DNA of 59,701 nt from Microcaldota archaeon (lineage in GTDB: Archaea > Micrarchaeota > Micrarchaeia > Anstonellales > Bilamarchaeaceae). The notes beneath the pieces were generated by a model, which did not search any database, was not told the DNA's origin, and saw nothing but the letters and a program-made list of their open reading frames with translations. Both the position numbers and the translations under genes were made by a program. The first letter of the stretch is position 1; each line of letters opens with the position of its first letter. The DNA is taken from contig JAFGCC010000007.1 of assembly GCA_016932815.1 (NCBI GenBank), forward strand, positions 1 to 59,701, written 5' to 3'. Below are positions 23,641 to 30,666 of the stretch, piece after piece.

Positions 23641-23682
23641 GCATAAAGGTTGATTAATAAACTTTTTTGCGGTATTCCCCCC

Positions 23683-26600
23683 ATGCAGGAGGGCCAGAAG
23701 GAAAAATCATCCGAAGGAACCTTGCTTGCCGAGCAGAAAGTCCGCGCATACCTGAACATCGCGCAGAAAGACGAGAACCTCTGGTCGGCATTCCTGGTTT
23801 TCCTGGGAGCCCTTTCATTATTGGGCGCAATCCCCTTCTACCCGATAGCAATAGCATTCGTGCTCGCACTAGCCTGCGGCGCAGTAGCATACAAAAGCCC
23901 GCCCCTGGGGGTGGCACTTGGATTCATACTAATACTCCCGGCCCTCTCATACCAGTCCGCGATTTTCGGCTGGGTAGGGCTCATGATACTGGCCCTGATA
24001 TTCTTTGAGGTATTTGAGCACTGGGGAGAAATAGCCCTCCTCGAAGTGCTGGTCCTCCTTCCCTTTGCGGTATTCCCCTTCTCCCTATTGGGAGGATTAA
24101 TCTACTTCGGCATGGTTTGGGGGAGCTTCCATTTCGGCTCGGCAAAGAGCATGATAATATCGACTGCCTCGGTATTCATGGTTTTGCTCCTAAGCTCCAT
24201 CTGGCTGGTTCCCAATTCGGCTTTCTTTGGGATAAACACCGCTGCCTATTCCGCCCTCCCCGCAATACAGCTAACCAAGCCCGCCCTCCCCCTAATTTCT
24301 GTAATCCCCGGGATAATCCCCGCCCTAACCAACCTCGCAAACCTGCAGGCCGTAAGCCAGGCCTGGGCGGCAATGGGCCACATAGGCTCAAACATGATAA
24401 CCCTCATCATAGCAGATGGGGCGATAGCCCAGATTGCAGTATGGGCTGCAGTCCTCTTCTTTGCGGGGTGGTTCCCGGGAAAGAGCAGGAACCGCTGGAG
24501 GCAGACAATTGCCGCACTCCCCATCCTCTTAGTCCCCGCAGCATATTTCATAATTTGCGCAATCTACCATTACCCGTTCTACCCGGCGATGTTCCTGTAT
24601 GCGGGGCTGTCCGTGGGCGCAGTCGCCCTAATAGACCTTGCGGGAGTGACTTTTTCAAGGGAGCGCAAGATTGAGCGCGGCAAGAAAACAAAGAAGTTCG
24701 GGAAGTTCGGCTTCGGGGACGCAGCCGATTCCGGGGAAACCCTAGATAGCGTCGGAGGATATGAAGACGTTAAAAAGGAATTGCGAGATTCCATACTCCT
24801 TCCCTTGCAGAGCAAGGACCTCGCCTTTGCCTACAACCTCAAAGTCCCAAGCGGAATCCTCCTCTTTGGCCCGCCCGGAACGGGAAAAACCCTCCTAATG
24901 CGCGCCCTTGCAAACGACATGGACTATAGCTTCTATCCGGTAAAAACCCCCGAAATCCTAAGCCAATGGTATGGGGAATCGCTCCCATATTCCGAAAAGA
25001 TGCTCGTAAAGGGTGAGGATGGGAGAGTGCGCCTCAGGGAAATTGGGGAAGTTGTCGAAAAGCGCCTCAGTGTTGAGGTGCTTGCATTCGACAAAAGCGG
25101 AATGGCGCGATTCTCAAAGGTAACAGGCCACATAAAGCACAAGTCCACCTCCCCGATATATGAAGTGAAAACGCGCACCGGAAGGAGGATAAAAGTTACC
25201 GCATACCATTCGCTCTTTTCATTTGACGGCTCAAAGATAAGCGAGGTGAAAACTTCCGAACTGGTTCCAAAATCATCCTACATTGCAATTCCCTCGTCTA
25301 TCCCATTTTCCGAAAATCCCATAATTGAGATGGACCTGCTCTCCCACCTCAAGGAGGACGATTATGGGCTTTCAGTTTCCGGGGTTTCCGCATATGCCCT
25401 CGAAGCGATAGGGCGCCTTGGGGAAGAAAAAGCAATGGAAATCCTGGGGTACAATTCCAGGAGTTACATGAAACAGGCGCTCAAAGCGGGCAGGGCAATA
25501 AAGGTGCGCAGGTTCCTTGCCCTAATGGATGCCGCACACATAACTGCTGATTCATCAAAAATAAGTGTAATCGCAAAAAGGAAGCGCTTCCCGGCACTAA
25601 TTGATGTGGATGAAGATTTCTCTACGTTCCTTGGGCTCTGGGTCGCAGAAGGCTCATACAACCGCAAGGATACGGTACGCATAAGCGTTTCCAGGAAAGA
25701 AGAGAAGAAAGCCGCAGCCCTATGCAGGAAGCTCTTTGGGCACGCAACGATATACCGCAAGAAAAATTCAAACGCCTCGGATATATACATGGGTTCAAAG
25801 CCCCTTTATGTTCTCATGCACGACATTCTGGGCATACATGATGGCGCCCACGAAAAGTCCGTGCCGGACATCGCCTTCTCTTTGGGAAAGAAGAACATGG
25901 GTGCGTTCCTGCGCGGCTATTTTAGCGGGGATGGCACAATCTACTCCAACCAGCATGGCACCGCAATAGTGGAAGCCTCCACTGCGAGCAGGAACCTTGC
26001 GGATGCAACGCTTTACCTCCTGCTGCACTTTGGAATAGTGGGAACGGTTTACCCTAAAAAAGAATGGACGGGAACGCCCTCCTGGAGGGTTTCTTTCAAT
26101 GGAGTGGAGAACCTGCGTAAATTCTCGGAAATTTCCTTCCTGGATTCCCGGCGGGCTGCGAAGCTCACTTCTGCCATGGAATCCGCATCCTGGCACAGGA
26201 GCCCGCAGGTGCCCATCATAGGGGAGCTTCGGGGCATAGTGGCGCAGAAGTTTCCCAAGTGGTCGGCATCCTCAACAATAGGCACGGATGCCCTTATGGG
26301 CGTGGCTTTTGAAGAAGAGCCGGAATTCCTAGTGCCAATGCGCAATGGCATTTACTTAGATAGGGTGGAATCGGTAAAGAGAGTGGAAGACGAGGAATAC
26401 GTGTATGACGTTTCGGTAGAGGGCCTGGAGAATTTCACCGCGGGCTTTGGGGGGATTTTCGCCCACAACAGCGAGAAGAATGTAGTCGAAGTCTTCAACC
26501 GCGCAAGGGACACGGCCCCCGCAATACTCTTCTTTGATGAAATAGACGCAATCGGAAAAAGGAGGGCGCTAGCCGGAAACGACAGCGTAACCCCCAGGGT

Positions 26601-27885
26601 GCTAAGCGCACTCCTCCAGGAGATGGACGGGGCAAAAAAGAGCAAGAAGCAGGTAATAGTAGTTGGCGCAACCAACGTGCCAGACCAGCTTGACCCGGCC
26701 CTCATGCGCCCAGGAAGATTCGACAAGATAATCTACATGCATCTCCCAGATGATGCTGCCAGGAAGGCAATATTCAAGGTTTCCCTAAAGGGGCTGCCGG
26801 TTTCAAAAAGCGTCGATTACGACAAGCTTGCAAAAAAGAGCCGGAGGTTCTCCGGTGCCGACATCGCAAACGTGGTAAAGACCGCGCTCAGAAAAGCCGC
26901 AGAGGATGCGAAGAGGGCGGGCAAGGTAGTCCCGATTACGATGGACCACATCTTGGGCGTGCTCGAAAAAACAAAGCCCAGCACCTCCCTTGGCTCATTA
27001 GAAGACTACGAGCGCTTCCAGCTTGATTTCCAGCGCTCCGAATCCGGAAGCGGGGCCGAAGAAGATGCAGACGGAAAGAAGAAAAAGAAAGCAGTAGGCT
27101 GGGACGACGTTGCAGGATTGGACGACCTAAAAGGGGCGTTCAAGGAGGCAATCGAAATCCCCCTCCTCCACCCCGAACTCCTAGAGGAATTCAAGGTAAA
27201 GCCCAGCAAGGGAATACTCCTATTTGGCCCCCCAGGCACGGGCAAAACCCTCACAGTCCGCGCAGCATCCAACGAGCTGGATGTTTCATTCTTAACAATA
27301 AGCGGGGCACAGCTCATGCAGCAGGGATACGCCCATGCGGTAAACGTAATCAAGGAAACATTCAACAGGGCAAGGGAGAACCCCCCATCCGTAATCTTCG
27401 TAGATGAAATCGAGACGTTCGCCCCTGCAAGGGGAATGGGCCGCTCGGACATAGTAGGCCAGTTCCTAGTGGAAATGGACGGGGTAAAGGGCAATGAGGG
27501 AGTGCTGGTAGTTGGCGCAACCAACCGCCCCGACATCCTGGACAAGGCGCTCCTGCGCCCAGGGCGCTTCGACAAGGTATTCTACGTCCACCCGCCCGAT
27601 GAGAAAGGGAGGAAGGAGCTATTCAAAATCCACCTCGGGAAATTCACGGGGGGCCTGGACATAGGGCGTCTTGCAGAGGCGACTGCAGGATTTACCGGAG
27701 CCGACATCGCCGCGCTCTCCCAGCAAGCGAAAATGGGCATGCTCCGCGAGAAGCTATCTGGCAAGAAGGCGGAACTCGAAACTTCGGATGTAGAGAAGCT
27801 CCTCTCCGCAATGAAGCCTTCCGTAACCCGCAGGATGCTTGAAGAATACGAGAGCTTCGTGGAAGAATACGGGGAGCGCAGGTAA
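23683..27885 (+). CDS. Membrane-anchored double AAA+ (CDC48-like) ATPase with intein
   Basis: A 1400-residue precursor from ATG 23683. An upstream in-frame TTG exists, but the TATA-like TTAATAAACTT at ~23653 makes 23683 nearly leaderless. Residues about 35-325 contain some 8-10 hydrophobic helices. AAA domain D1 has Walker A GPPGTGKTL (about 395-403), then the pore-loop sequence QWYGES, which is interrupted by an intein, then Walker B ILFFDEIDAI and GATNVPDQLDPALMRPGRFD. D2 has GPPGTGKTL, VIFVDEIETF and GATNRPDILD. The mature extein should be ~903 residues. CDC48/p97 proteins thread substrates through the ring; here the ring would be fixed to the membrane by the N-terminal helices. No protease domain is present, unlike FtsH. 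Confidence 0.93.
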   Translation: MQEGQKEKSSEGTLLAEQKVRAYLNIAQKDENLWSAFLVFLGALSLLGAIPFYPIAIAFVLALACGAVAYKSPPLGVALGFILILPALSYQSAIFGWVGLMILALIFFEVFEHWGEIALLEVLVLLPFAVFPFSLLGGLIYFGMVWGSFHFGSAKSMIISTASVFMVLLLSSIWLVPNSAFFGINTAAYSALPAIQLTKPALPLISVIPGIIPALTNLANLQAVSQAWAAMGHIGSNMITLIIADGAIAQIAVWAAVLFFAGWFPGKSRNRWRQTIAALPILLVPAAYFIICAIYHYPFYPAMFLYAGLSVGAVALIDLAGVTFSRERKIERGKKTKKFGKFGFGDAADSGETLDSVGGYEDVKKELRDSILLPLQSKDLAFAYNLKVPSGILLFGPPGTGKTLLMRALANDMDYSFYPVKTPEILSQWYGESLPYSEKMLVKGEDGRVRLREIGEVVEKRLSVEVLAFDKSGMARFSKVTGHIKHKSTSPIYEVKTRTGRRIKVTAYHSLFSFDGSKISEVKTSELVPKSSYIAIPSSIPFSENPIIEMDLLSHLKEDDYGLSVSGVSAYALEAIGRLGEEKAMEILGYNSRSYMKQALKAGRAIKVRRFLALMDAAHITADSSKISVIAKRKRFPALIDVDEDFSTFLGLWVAEGSYNRKDTVRISVSRKEEKKAAALCRKLFGHATIYRKKNSNASDIYMGSKPLYVLMHDILGIHDGAHEKSVPDIAFSLGKKNMGAFLRGYFSGDGTIYSNQHGTAIVEASTASRNLADATLYLLLHFGIVGTVYPKKEWTGTPSWRVSFNGVENLRKFSEISFLDSRRAAKLTSAMESASWHRSPQVPIIGELRGIVAQKFPKWSASSTIGTDALMGVAFEEEPEFLVPMRNGIYLDRVESVKRVEDEEYVYDVSVEGLENFTAGFGGIFAHNSEKNVVEVFNRARDTAPAILFFDEIDAIGKRRALAGNDSVTPRVLSALLQEMDGAKKSKKQVIVVGATNVPDQLDPALMRPGRFDKIIYMHLPDDAARKAIFKVSLKGLPVSKSVDYDKLAKKSRRFSGADIANVVKTALRKAAEDAKRAGKVVPITMDHILGVLEKTKPSTSLGSLEDYERFQLDFQRSESGSGAEEDADGKKKKKAVGWDDVAGLDDLKGAFKEAIEIPLLHPELLEEFKVKPSKGILLFGPPGTGKTLTVRAASNELDVSFLTISGAQLMQQGYAHAVNVIKETFNRARENPPSVIFVDEIETFAPARGMGRSDIVGQFLVEMDGVKGNEGVLVVGATNRPDILDKALLRPGRFDKVFYVHPPDEKGRKELFKIHLGKFTGGLDIGRLAEATAGFTGADIAALSQQAKMGMLREKLSGKKAELETSDVEKLLSAMKPSVTRRMLEEYESFVEEYGERR
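24979..26469 (+). mobile_element. Intein with LAGLIDADG homing endonuclease
   Basis: A 497-residue in-frame insertion (precursor residues 433-929). The N-terminal splice residue is Ser (SLPYSEK), directly after the extein WYGE. Block B is VTAYHSLFSF (His). The two LAGLIDADG-type motifs are FLGLWVAEGS and FLRGYFSGDG, each with its acidic residue. The C-terminal splice block is GFGGIFAHN, followed by extein Ser+1 (SEKN). Removing it rejoins WYGE-SEKNVVEVF, which matches the AAA family. All blocks are intact, so splicing and homing activity are both plausible. Position: pore loop 1 of AAA domain D1. Confidence 0.93.
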
Positions 27886-27908
27886 GTCGGATGCCCTCCG
27901 GGCCCGCT

Positions 27909-27944
27909 CACCAGGCAAGGGGGAAGCGTCCCCCTCGCCTAGTG
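27909..27944. repeat. Long hairpin downstream of the AAA gene
   Basis: Arms 27909-27924 and 27929-27944 pair at 14 of 16 positions with the 4-base loop AGCG; the core is AGGCAAGGGGGA with TCCCCCTCGCCT. It begins 24 bases after the AAA stop codon. Likely a transcript-end structure; it also marks the left edge of the AT-richer retroelement island. Confidence 0.5.
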
Positions 27945-28082
27945 GAACATACTCCCCCTCATTATTCTTCTTTTGCCTTCGGGTTTCCAGTTTCGGGTTG
28001 CGGGTTTTGGAATTTTGCGTTTGATAATTTAGGGTTTTCTGTTTCGGGTTTTGATGAGTTAGAAAAGGAGATAACCAAATTA

Positions 28083-28355
28083 ATGCAGGATGAAGACGTT
28101 ACCAAAAAATCAGGCATTTACCCGTATGTTTTAACAAGAGAGGAGAAATACCTGAATATCCGTGCCTTTACCGACAATCAAAAAAGGGAAGCATACGAAA
28201 GGCAAAAGGGCATTTGTCCGAAATGCAAGGAACATTTTGAGATAGGAGAAATGGAAGCCGACCACATAAAGCCGTGGCATGAGGGAGGGAAGACTACTGC
28301 CCAAAATTGCCAGATGCTATGCAAAGCGGATAACAGGGCCAAATCAGGGAAATAA
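28083..28355 (+). pseudogene. HNH endonuclease remnant (C-terminus of a DUF262-type protein)
   Basis: The 90 residues from ATG 28083 match the C-terminal HNH part of DUF262/GmrS-like endonucleases as I recall them: YPYVLTREEKYLNIRAF, AYERQKGICPKC, MEADHIKPWHEGGKTT, NCQMLCK. The N-terminal ParB-like DUF262 domain (several hundred residues) is missing, and upstream sequence is GGGTTT-rich non-coding DNA. The final zinc ligand expected after MLCK (usually CxxC) is replaced by ADN. It is therefore read as a truncated, probably inactive relic of a restriction or mobility gene. Open reading extends upstream to 27891, but that part is not protein-like. Confidence 0.75.
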
Positions 28356-28456: not shown

Positions 28457-28494
28457 ATGACCAAACACAATAACAATCAATAATGGTGAAAATC

Positions 28495-29175
28495 ATGGCA
28501 CACGCACAAGCTAAAACAGAACAAAAATATGAAGGAACAAGAGACCCTAAAAGGATGTTGACTCACAAACTGCTCAATGAAGCAATAAGAAAAGACTGGA
28601 ATAACGTTGAAGGATTGCTTCCAGCTAGAACATCAACTTCGCTTGAGTACAAAGCAGGCGCAACAAAGGCTAAATCCTGGGATTATGGAAAGAAAAAGGT
28701 AAGCATAGATTTGCCTCTTGAAGATGGATGGTATGTGCCGGATGGAAACCCTTTTGATATCCCAAATGGCCGCAGGAGCAACCCTGATGATCCGGATGCT
28801 CTTTATCTGATAAGAAATCAGAAGGAGGCGTTCGCCGGCCCTGTTGGCCGTGGCGGCGGCTACTTCGACGGCAGGAGGCGTGGCGTCTTTGCCTGTGGCG
28901 GCTGGTCCGATGATTCGGGGGTGGCGTTGATTGGTCGCGAAGCGACCACGCCGCTGGCAGATGTACCGGAAGAAAGGCTGGTTGAAGTCGCTGACCCAAA
29001 AGCATTGGTGCAGAGAGCCCGACTATTGGAAGCTGCGGCAAAGGAACTGACTGAGCGCTTGGGAGGAGTGTTAACTCCGGAAGCATTTGCCCGTTTAATC
29101 AAACCAACTTCGGATGAGGCAGCTTTCCTGAGGGAATTGGCCGGAAAAATCGAAGCGATACAGCAAAAAGCGTAA
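28495..29175 (+). CDS. DGR target protein (variable, C-type-lectin-like fold)
   Basis: A 226-residue protein. ATG 28495 is chosen over 28483 because GGTGA precedes it at normal spacing. Residues ~1-50 are a helical head and 60-150 resemble the C-type-lectin/FGE-like fold of DGR targets as known in DPANN archaea (LEDGWYVPDGN, SDDSGVAL). The variable repeat encodes residues about 114-145. Diversified residues include the GGY after GRG, the Gly after FD, the Gly and Phe flanking Val in GVF, and CGG before WS. A ~75-residue helical C-terminus follows, which is unusual since the VR is mostly at the C-terminus in classical DGRs. No signal peptide is seen, so it may act inside the cell. Confidence 0.88.
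   Translation: MAHAQAKTEQKYEGTRDPKRMLTHKLLNEAIRKDWNNVEGLLPARTSTSLEYKAGATKAKSWDYGKKKVSIDLPLEDGWYVPDGNPFDIPNGRRSNPDDPDALYLIRNQKEAFAGPVGRGGGYFDGRRRGVFACGGWSDDSGVALIGREATTPLADVPEERLVEVADPKALVQRARLLEAAAKELTERLGGVLTPEAFARLIKPTSDEAAFLRELAGKIEAIQQKA
28834..28929 (+). repeat. DGR variable repeat (VR)
   Basis: Aligned without gaps to the template repeat at 29423-29518 (offset 589). The first 22 bases are identical. Over 96 bases, 20 of the 26 template adenines are changed here (17 to G, 3 to T), and only one non-adenine template base differs (C to G at 28926). Such adenine-restricted change is the hallmark of mutagenic retrohoming. Confidence 0.95.
28932..28948 (+). repeat. Hairpin just after the VR (DGR target-site stem-loop)
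   Basis: TGGTCGC-GAA-GCGACCA is a perfect 7-bp stem with a GAA loop, starting 3 bases after the VR end. In the Bordetella phage DGR a short GC-rich hairpin with a GAAA loop sits at the same place and is needed for efficient retrohoming. It is absent after the TR. Confidence 0.8.
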
Positions 29176-29253
29176 TCCCTTCCCTTTTTTAATGTTCCAT
29201 TCCCAATGCCATTCCCTTGCCTTGCAGGTTAGGGCCACACACTCGCTTACAGC

Positions 29254-29277
29254 ACCAAGGGGCTTCTGCCCCTTGGT
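29254..29277. terminator. 10-bp perfect hairpin after the DGR target gene
   Basis: ACCAAGGGGC-TTCT-GCCCCTTGGT, a perfect stem with a 4-base loop, 79 bases beyond the target stop codon. There is no T-run after it. It probably ends or protects the target transcript, or separates it from the TR transcript. The rest of 29176-29421 has no gene; I looked for a short Avd-like accessory protein there and saw none. Confidence 0.5.
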
Positions 29278-29421
29278 CATGAAATACAGCAGCGACAGTT
29301 AGTAGTTTGTTCTTTTGCGAAACCTGAAGCTGCGGTGGGGCTCAATGAGCCATCTTGATGAATGAAACTTCATTGGGGCCTTGTGCCGGCAAACACATGG
29401 CTTAAGTAAGCGGGTTACATT

Positions 29422-29518
29422 GGCCGGCCCTGTTGGCCGTGGCGACAACAACTTCGACAACAGGAGGCGTAACGTCAATGCCTATGACAACTGGTCCAAT
29501 GATTCGGAAATGACCTTA
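29422..29518 (+). repeat. DGR template repeat (TR)
   Basis: Template partner of the VR at 28834-28929. Between GGCCGGCCCTGTTGGCCGTG and the end it is rich in AAC, GAC and AAT codons (26 adenines), the usual template style that allows Asn/Asp codons to diversify broadly. It lies between the target gene and the reverse transcriptase, 49 bases before the RT start. It is in the same reading frame as the RT with no stop codon between them. Confidence 0.95.
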
Positions 29519-29566: not shown

Positions 29567-30666
29567 ATGCGAAGCTACAATGATTTATACGGACATCTTA
29601 CCTCTTATGAAAACCTTGAGCTTGCTTTCAAAAAAGCAAAGAAAGGAAAAACCCTGAAAGATTATGTTGTCAGGTTTGAAAGCAATATTGAAGAAAACCT
29701 GCTGAAACTTCAATTTGAACTTCAATCCTTCACTTACCGGCCAATGCCCATCCAGACTTTCATAATAAGAGATCCAAAAACCAGAAGAATTGGGGCATCT
29801 GACTTTAGAGACCGCGTGGTCCATCATGCAATATGCAATGTGATATCCCCAATTCTGGGAAACAGTTTCATTTTTGATTCATTTGCAAACCAAAAAGGCA
29901 AAGGAACCCATTCCGCCATAAAAAGATTTGAGAAATTTATGAGGGGAGCCCCGGCCGATAATTGCAGAATCCAAATAGGGGGGGGGGCAAGCGAGTTTTG
30001 GACAACAGAACCCATGCCGGTTATGTGTTCAAGGCAGATATAAGACACTATTTCGAAACTGTTGACCATCAAATCCTGCTTAAGCTAATACGAAAAAGAA
30101 TCGAAGATAAGAAAACAATGTGGTTGATAGAAACAATTCTGAAAAATCATACGACAAGGATTCCCGGGAAGGGAATGCCATTGGGCAACTTAACTTCCCA
30201 GTTCTTTGCGAACCTATACCTGAATGAGCTTGATTATTTTGTAAAACATAAGCTTAAAGCAAAATATTACATTCGCTATGTTGATGATTTTGTAATCCTC
30301 CATAAGAATAAGAGACTGTTGAAAAACTGGAAGAAAAAGATAAACAATTTTTTGAAGGAGAAACTGAAACTCGGTTTACATCCTGAAAAATCCAAAATAT
30401 TTCCTTTGAAAAGAGGGATAACACTTCTCGGTTTCAGGATTTTTTCAAAGCATAGGCTGTTGAAGAAAAGCAATGCGAGAAGAATATGGAAGCGCCTTGG
30501 CAAGTTCAAGCAAAAATACCAATCCGGAAACATAGAAAAAGAAAAAATCTCCCAAAGCCTGGATGGCTGGATTGCATACGCGGAATTCGCCAATACCTAC
30601 AATCTGCGCATGAAGGTTGCATTTGCTTTTGCTGAAGCTTTCAATACGGAAGGAATAGCAAAATAA
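29567..30666 (+). CDS. DGR reverse transcriptase, frameshifted at a G10 tract
   Basis: Start ATG 29567 (MRSYNDLYGHL). The upstream part to about 29977 has the RT N-terminal motifs (FRDRVVHHAICNVISP, IFDSFANQKGKGTHSA). The downstream part continues in another frame with KADIRHYFETVDH (catalytic Asp), GMPLGNLTSQFFANLYL (the LGxxxSQ variant typical of DGR RTs), RYVDDFV at about 30274-30294 (catalytic Asp pair) and LLGFRIF. A run of ten G at 29978-29987 separates the frames. Eleven or eight G would restore one protein of about 366 residues. It could be a contingency tract, ribosomal slippage, a real loss, or a base-calling error. Codon use is AT-richer than in flanking genes, suggesting acquisition. 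Confidence 0.9.

Follow-up and report, generated by a model that had tools for sequence, protein, structure and literature searches.

A diversity-generating retroelement in a micrarchaeal chromosome

The window, that is, the whole 59,701-nt stretch of DNA analysed here, belongs to a micrarchaeal genome whose named relatives are Candidatus Micrarchaeota and which holds a single RT. On its + strand a target gene with an internal VR is followed by a hairpin, an RT-16 RNA, a TR and an RT (29567-30666), a layout that is common to relatives. With its target, hairpin, TR and DGR-type RT, the locus is a diversity-generating retroelement (DGR). The occurrence of DGRs in DPANN archaea, to which the earlier note on this DNA had pointed, was already known. 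The features of the locus are the following.

28483..29175, + strand: DGR target gene, an ORF of 230 aa, or 226 aa from the ATG at 28495, made up of a conserved N-terminal domain, the VR and a two-helix tail
28834..28917, + strand: mutable core of the VR
28918..28925, + strand: IMH-like 3′ end of the VR, GGGGTGGC, with a fixed difference from the GAAATGAC of the TR that is common to relatives
28932..28948, + strand: hairpin 3′ of the VR, an inverted repeat with a 7-bp stem and a GAA loop
29214..29423, + strand: RT-16 RNA (Rfam RF03019; cmscan 78 bits, E 1.7e-10)
29423..29506, + strand: core of the TR
29507..29514, + strand: IMH*-like 3′ end of the TR, GAAATGAC
29567..30043, + strand: N-terminal part of the RT (fingers), 158 aa, matching PHROG 1423 (E 1.6e-44), which loses its frame past the G tract and then ends at a stop
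29978..29987, + strand: poly-G10 tract, the proposed phase-variation switch of the RT, a tract being present at the homologous position of 22 further loci in Micrarchaeota, the ambiguous L006 included
29988..30666, + strand: C-terminal part of the RT (palm with YVDD, and thumb), in another frame, matching PF00078 (E 2.9e-18)

The TR (29423-29518) and the VR (28834-28929) align over 96 positions without gaps. Our recount returned the same figures as the earlier note: 20 of the 26 TR adenines are changed in the VR (17 A>G and 3 A>T; hypergeometric P=2e-14), and the sole difference at a non-adenine position is a C>G at 28926. The variation had been described as adenine-restricted. In the 84-nt mutable core (28834-28917 / 29423-29506), 15 of 21 adenines and none of the 63 other positions are changed; the 3′ end calls for a correction. 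Judged from sequence comparison, the five A>G at 28919-28929 that turn GAAATGAC into GGGGTGGC are fixed IMH*/IMH differences rather than products of mutagenesis, because the 3′ ends of relatives show the same fixed difference between TR and VR. Indeed, in pairs whose 3′ end aligns, the TR of relatives ends in GAAATG(AC) or GGAATG(AC) and its VR counterpart in GGGGTG(GC), and two loci have CAATGG in the TR and CGGTGG in the VR.

Adenine-restricted differences recur in 15 more TR/VR pairs, all from relatives. Pooling all 16 comparisons gave 116 A>G, 60 A>T and 5 A>C changes, with 137 adenines retained and 7 of 690 non-adenine positions changed. The rarity of A>C (5 of 181 changes), although most template codons are AAC, is unlike what is known of the BPP-1 RT (PMC12875486) and may point to another spectrum of errors or to selection. 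A search of the micrarchaeal genome itself for further VRs, a step that had been proposed earlier, found none.

An IMH/IMH* pair and a hairpin thus stand at the 3′ end of the VR, as is characteristic of DGRs. The hairpin is the one noticed before (TGGTCGC-GAA-GCGACCA); in relatives the stems differ and covary, and the GAA loop is mostly conserved. The A-specific transfer from TR to VR, the IMH/IMH* end and the hairpin after the VR are all shared with the BPP-1 DGR (mtd/avd/TR/brt; RT structures 8ub7 and others), in which homing requires a hairpin downstream of the VR (PMC3240598). In contrast to BPP-1, no Avd gene was seen between target and RT: no + strand ORF of at least 60 aa lies between target and TR, and the RT-16 RNA that precedes the TR is found there instead. 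This RNA, detected at 16 of the 20 related RT loci that were searched, probably forms the 5′ portion of the TR transcript. Its place directly upstream of the TR in DGR loci suggests that the family RF03019 belongs to the template RNA of DGRs.

The target family has 22 members in relatives, and the target had no match in Pfam, NCBIfam, PHROG or the PDB, by sequence or by fold (cut-off of the fold search E≤0.001). Its AlphaFold model (pLDDT 85.5) has helices at 168-189 and 195-225. DGR targets typically have a C-type lectin or Ig fold; the model, though good, matched no PDB fold at the cut-off given. The mid-protein VR with a helical tail, which had been singled out as a peculiarity, is therefore present. 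It is not unusual, however, since nanoarchaeal AvpA, a DGR target that likewise belongs to a DPANN host, has already been described as having an internal VR and, after it, an extension of two helices (PMC5006420); the present family is unrelated to it by sequence. The reported lack of a signal peptide fits the N-terminus MVKIMAHAQAKTEQKYEGTRDPKRM, as judged by eye. In one relative (G002), a DGR target (L036:1114-2454) has a VR domain followed by what appear by eye to be ankyrin-like repeats. Many target paralogues lie on different contigs in G033 (15 matches), G039 and G002.

Two neighbouring genes deserve mention. An HNH endonuclease gene (window 27891-28355) lies directly upstream of the DGR target; we know of no nicking enzyme for DGR targets. 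The gene at positions 23650-27885 of the window codes for a CDC48-like tandem AAA ATPase that contains an intein bearing a LAGLIDADG domain (residues about 457-940).

An RT encoded in two frames, and simple-sequence tracts in relatives

The RT had been taken as complete, and the DGR layout with it. The other components are in place, but the RT is disrupted at the G10 tract (29978-29987), a feature that the earlier note did not mention, and the consensus cannot encode a whole enzyme. The N-terminal part, starting at the ATG at 29567, reads through the ten G's and ends at a stop at 30043, and KADIRHYF, YVDD and the thumb are encoded in another frame. The motifs YVDD and NLTSQFF are nevertheless present, and the best PDB match is the BPP-1 DGR RT (8ub7; E 9e-68), the fold of which resembles that of the modelled RT (TM 0.82/0.90). 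The tract is located between the fingers and motif A. In the alignment to 8ub7, the BPP-1 RT has no insertion there, so that the archaeal chromosomal enzyme differs from it by an extra pre-motif-A linker encoded by simple sequence. In the model of an in-frame relative's RT (361 aa, pLDDT 90.2), the sole segment below 50 is this tract-encoded linker (residues 134-144). Since the tract encodes only a disordered loop of the modelled RT, linkers of any whole-codon length should be tolerated.

Simple-sequence tracts occur at the same junction in 22 micrarchaeal RT loci, as G8-11, C8-9 or (AG)5-12, and encode poly-Gly, poly-Pro or Arg-Glu repeats. The frame offsets between the RT halves are 0, +1 and +2 in 3, 10 and 9 of these loci, single-genome frame calls being soft as homopolymers of 9-12 are prone to mis-assembly; the in-frame ones are L003, L062 and L224. 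All eight tract-free micrarchaeal RTs are in frame (Fisher P=3e-5 against the tract loci), and the interval in which the frame can change holds the tract in every tract-bearing locus. Such tracts are not a general background of these genomes: 1.7 kb of junction DNA holds 24 of them, compared with none in the 114 kb that surround the micrarchaeal RTs, and the genome of the window has only three G tracts of at least 9 and no (AG)6. In the RT tree, the tract-bearing enzymes fall inside one strongly supported clade (100/100), within which the type of tract changes repeatedly and its position stays constant, across families.

Differences in length between closely comparable loci were also seen. One genome carries two RTs, one with (AG)9 and out of frame, the other with (AG)10 and in frame. 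The neighbours G020, in frame with G10, and G019, out of frame with G8, are 82% identical and have near-identical flanks. A 23rd locus (L006, in G042) is interrupted by a scaffold gap with a tract on both sides, G9 and G11, a hint of length polymorphism within one population. Among the genomes compared, with one genome per species, no near-identical ones differing in tract length alone were found, the nearest pair being 82% identical.

Simple-sequence tracts in other DPANN retroelements

A tract is borne by 55 of 180 distinct DPANN DGR RTs, in all 55 cases at one of four sites, the proportions among which are not population estimates; 120 of the 125 tract-free RTs are in one frame. Site A is the start of the RT. 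Its tracts stand mainly at the Avd/RT junction of Aenigmatarchaeota, and there the tract determines fusion of Avd with the RT; the ORF upstream is an Avd match (NF033474; E 3e-22 and 3e-18, of which the former falls slightly short of the curated cut-off). Because the RT keeps its own ATG at this site, the effect of the tract there must differ. Poly-G at this junction leaves the two proteins fused in frame at L280 and L311 and out of frame at L279, L283 and L288. Site B is the pre-motif-A linker, with 22 tracts, 19 of them out of frame. Site C, the loop before GMPLGN in a Nanoarchaeota-related phylum, has 19 tracts, 15 out of frame, ranging from G9 to G27 and including C11 and GA and CT repeats; at least 8 gains or losses map to well-supported branches (FastTree). 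Loci of this site were partly chosen for a split RT, which inflates the 4.7-fold enrichment. Five tracts lie at site D, in the thumb.

In the wider DPANN set, the frame switch falls inside the tract at 17 of 17 split loci that bear one at the pre-motif-A or pre-GMPLGN site. An A-restricted TR/VR pair was present in the fetched DNA at 27 of 41 tract-bearing or split loci, showing that these are DGRs. The same search of about 50 RTs on viral contigs found no tract within the RT.

Proposed phase variation of the RT and its alternatives

We propose, with a probability of roughly 0.8, that slipped-strand phase variation of the tract switches the mutagenic RT on and off, which would make the RT a phase-variable (contingency) gene of a chromosomal DGR. 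As in contingency loci, the tract lies inside the ORF and its length sets the frame, and both ON and OFF lengths occur among relatives (3 in frame, 19 out) of a gene that is under purifying selection (see below). Because single frame calls may be wrong, we base the argument on where the tracts lie and on their recurrence.

With the tract in frame, the full RT would be made and would copy the TR RNA with errors at adenines, the cDNA then replacing the VR of the target. Slipped-strand mispairing at replication would add or remove G's and so shift the catalytic half into another frame. The diversifier, presumably without activity in such cells, would then stay OFF until the tract slipped again. 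At any time the majority of cells would be OFF, as in the assembled sequence, and rare ON cells would give bursts of new target variants. The presumed benefit is that ON lineages would diversify the target and OFF lineages would retain a successful variant. The number of in-frame tract loci (3 of 22) is below the expectation of one third (P=0.035), a shortfall that calls for OFF as the favoured state or for dead loci among the 22; with 19 of them OFF, the excess would be consistent with a mutator that is costly and rarely ON. Across DPANN archaea, we consider it probable that tracts evolved repeatedly and independently at four permissive loops of the RT, making DGR diversification phase-variable and mostly OFF.

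An unlikely alternative is that programmed ribosomal frameshifting or transcriptional slippage yields some full-length RT from any tract length, which would mean a constant lower dose with no switching. Runs of G and of AG can be slippery, and purifying selection on out-of-frame genes would then be explained without a switch. Programmed ribosomal frameshifting, however, goes in one direction and relies on a conserved signal. Here, a shift of +1 would be required in some loci (10 in Micrarchaeota, 10 elsewhere) and one of +2 in others (9 and 7, respectively), in addition to the genes that are in frame, and these mixed offsets rule out a one-direction programmed frameshift. Furthermore, the base of the tract varies, even to C-runs and CT repeats. 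Slippage of RNA polymerase on the tract may be a source of full-length RT.

It is very improbable that the RT is a decaying pseudogene in which the G tract is merely the site of the first frameshift. In favour of decay, the RT as assembled has a broken frame, a stop is also present close to the end of L009, and frameshifted bacterial DGR RTs have been read in this way before. Indeed, the DGR of Bacteroides sp. 9_1_42FAA shares with ours a frame-broken RT and an intact VR/TR, and in the available part of PMC3521204 its frameshift is taken as inactivation or sequencing error, with no tract or recurrence reported. Against decay, dN/dS is 0.03-0.10 for both RT halves where dS was estimable, even when neither gene of a pair is in frame, an estimate pointing to purifying selection on both halves. 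Moreover, there are almost no other lesions, the tract has been retained at the same site across families, and the VRs of nine out-of-frame loci have only 1 change in 434 non-adenine positions. This identity of 433/434 suggests that the TR was copied into the VR recently, that is, that homing in out-of-frame loci was recent on an evolutionary scale.

We give scant credence to the idea that sequencing or assembly errors at homopolymers made an intact gene look frameshifted. Runs of 9-11 G are prone to error, and two lengths flank the scaffold gap in G042, but errors can create neither the tracts nor their confinement to four sites; in addition, dinucleotide tracts are out of frame too, and about 19 wrong calls in 22 are implausible. 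Finally, a split RT, translated separately as two polypeptides that then assemble, can be practically dismissed: the overlap of the two ORFs at the tract would fit it, but in some relatives the ORF is continuous, and 15 of the 19 out-of-frame micrarchaeal C-terminal halves lack an ATG or GTG ahead of their conserved start, 6 of them lacking a TTG as well.

Phase variation of the RT would place this locus alongside the contingency loci of Neisseria, Campylobacter and Haemophilus, which likewise have a hypermutable tract in an ORF, mixed frames and genes under selection. Known contingency loci based on simple-sequence repeats are mostly surface-structure genes and DNA methylases (PMC8437040, PMC5084427). 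In contrast, the gene switched here would itself be a targeted mutator, and in archaea, for which we found little published work on phase variation. What appears to be new is the simple-sequence tract in a DGR RT. Our search of open-licence papers on DGRs with phase variation, simple repeats, homopolymers or frameshifts found no report of a tract-switched RT, which is not proof of absence, and no such switch is described for the AvpA DGRs in the available part of PMC5006420.

A tract switch in the RT, if true, would be a simple heritable answer to the question of how constant self-mutation by a DGR is restrained. One localized mutator would then control another, an arrangement evolved repeatedly in archaea, and tract length in metagenome data would predict whether the VR of a population diversifies. 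Frame-broken RTs, possibly discarded or called dead by DGR surveys, may be switched-off functional genes.

The two other long G tracts of the genome lie in unrelated genes. A G9 tract (G000:C1:42346; L238, tract at 1501) breaks the reading frame of a large NosD-like protein of the right-handed beta-helix type, and PF13229 matches both pieces, making this gene a further candidate for phase variation in the same genome. The third and last, also G9 (G000:C12:10909; L257), is in frame in the charged N-terminal region of a protein identified by eye as FtsY-like.
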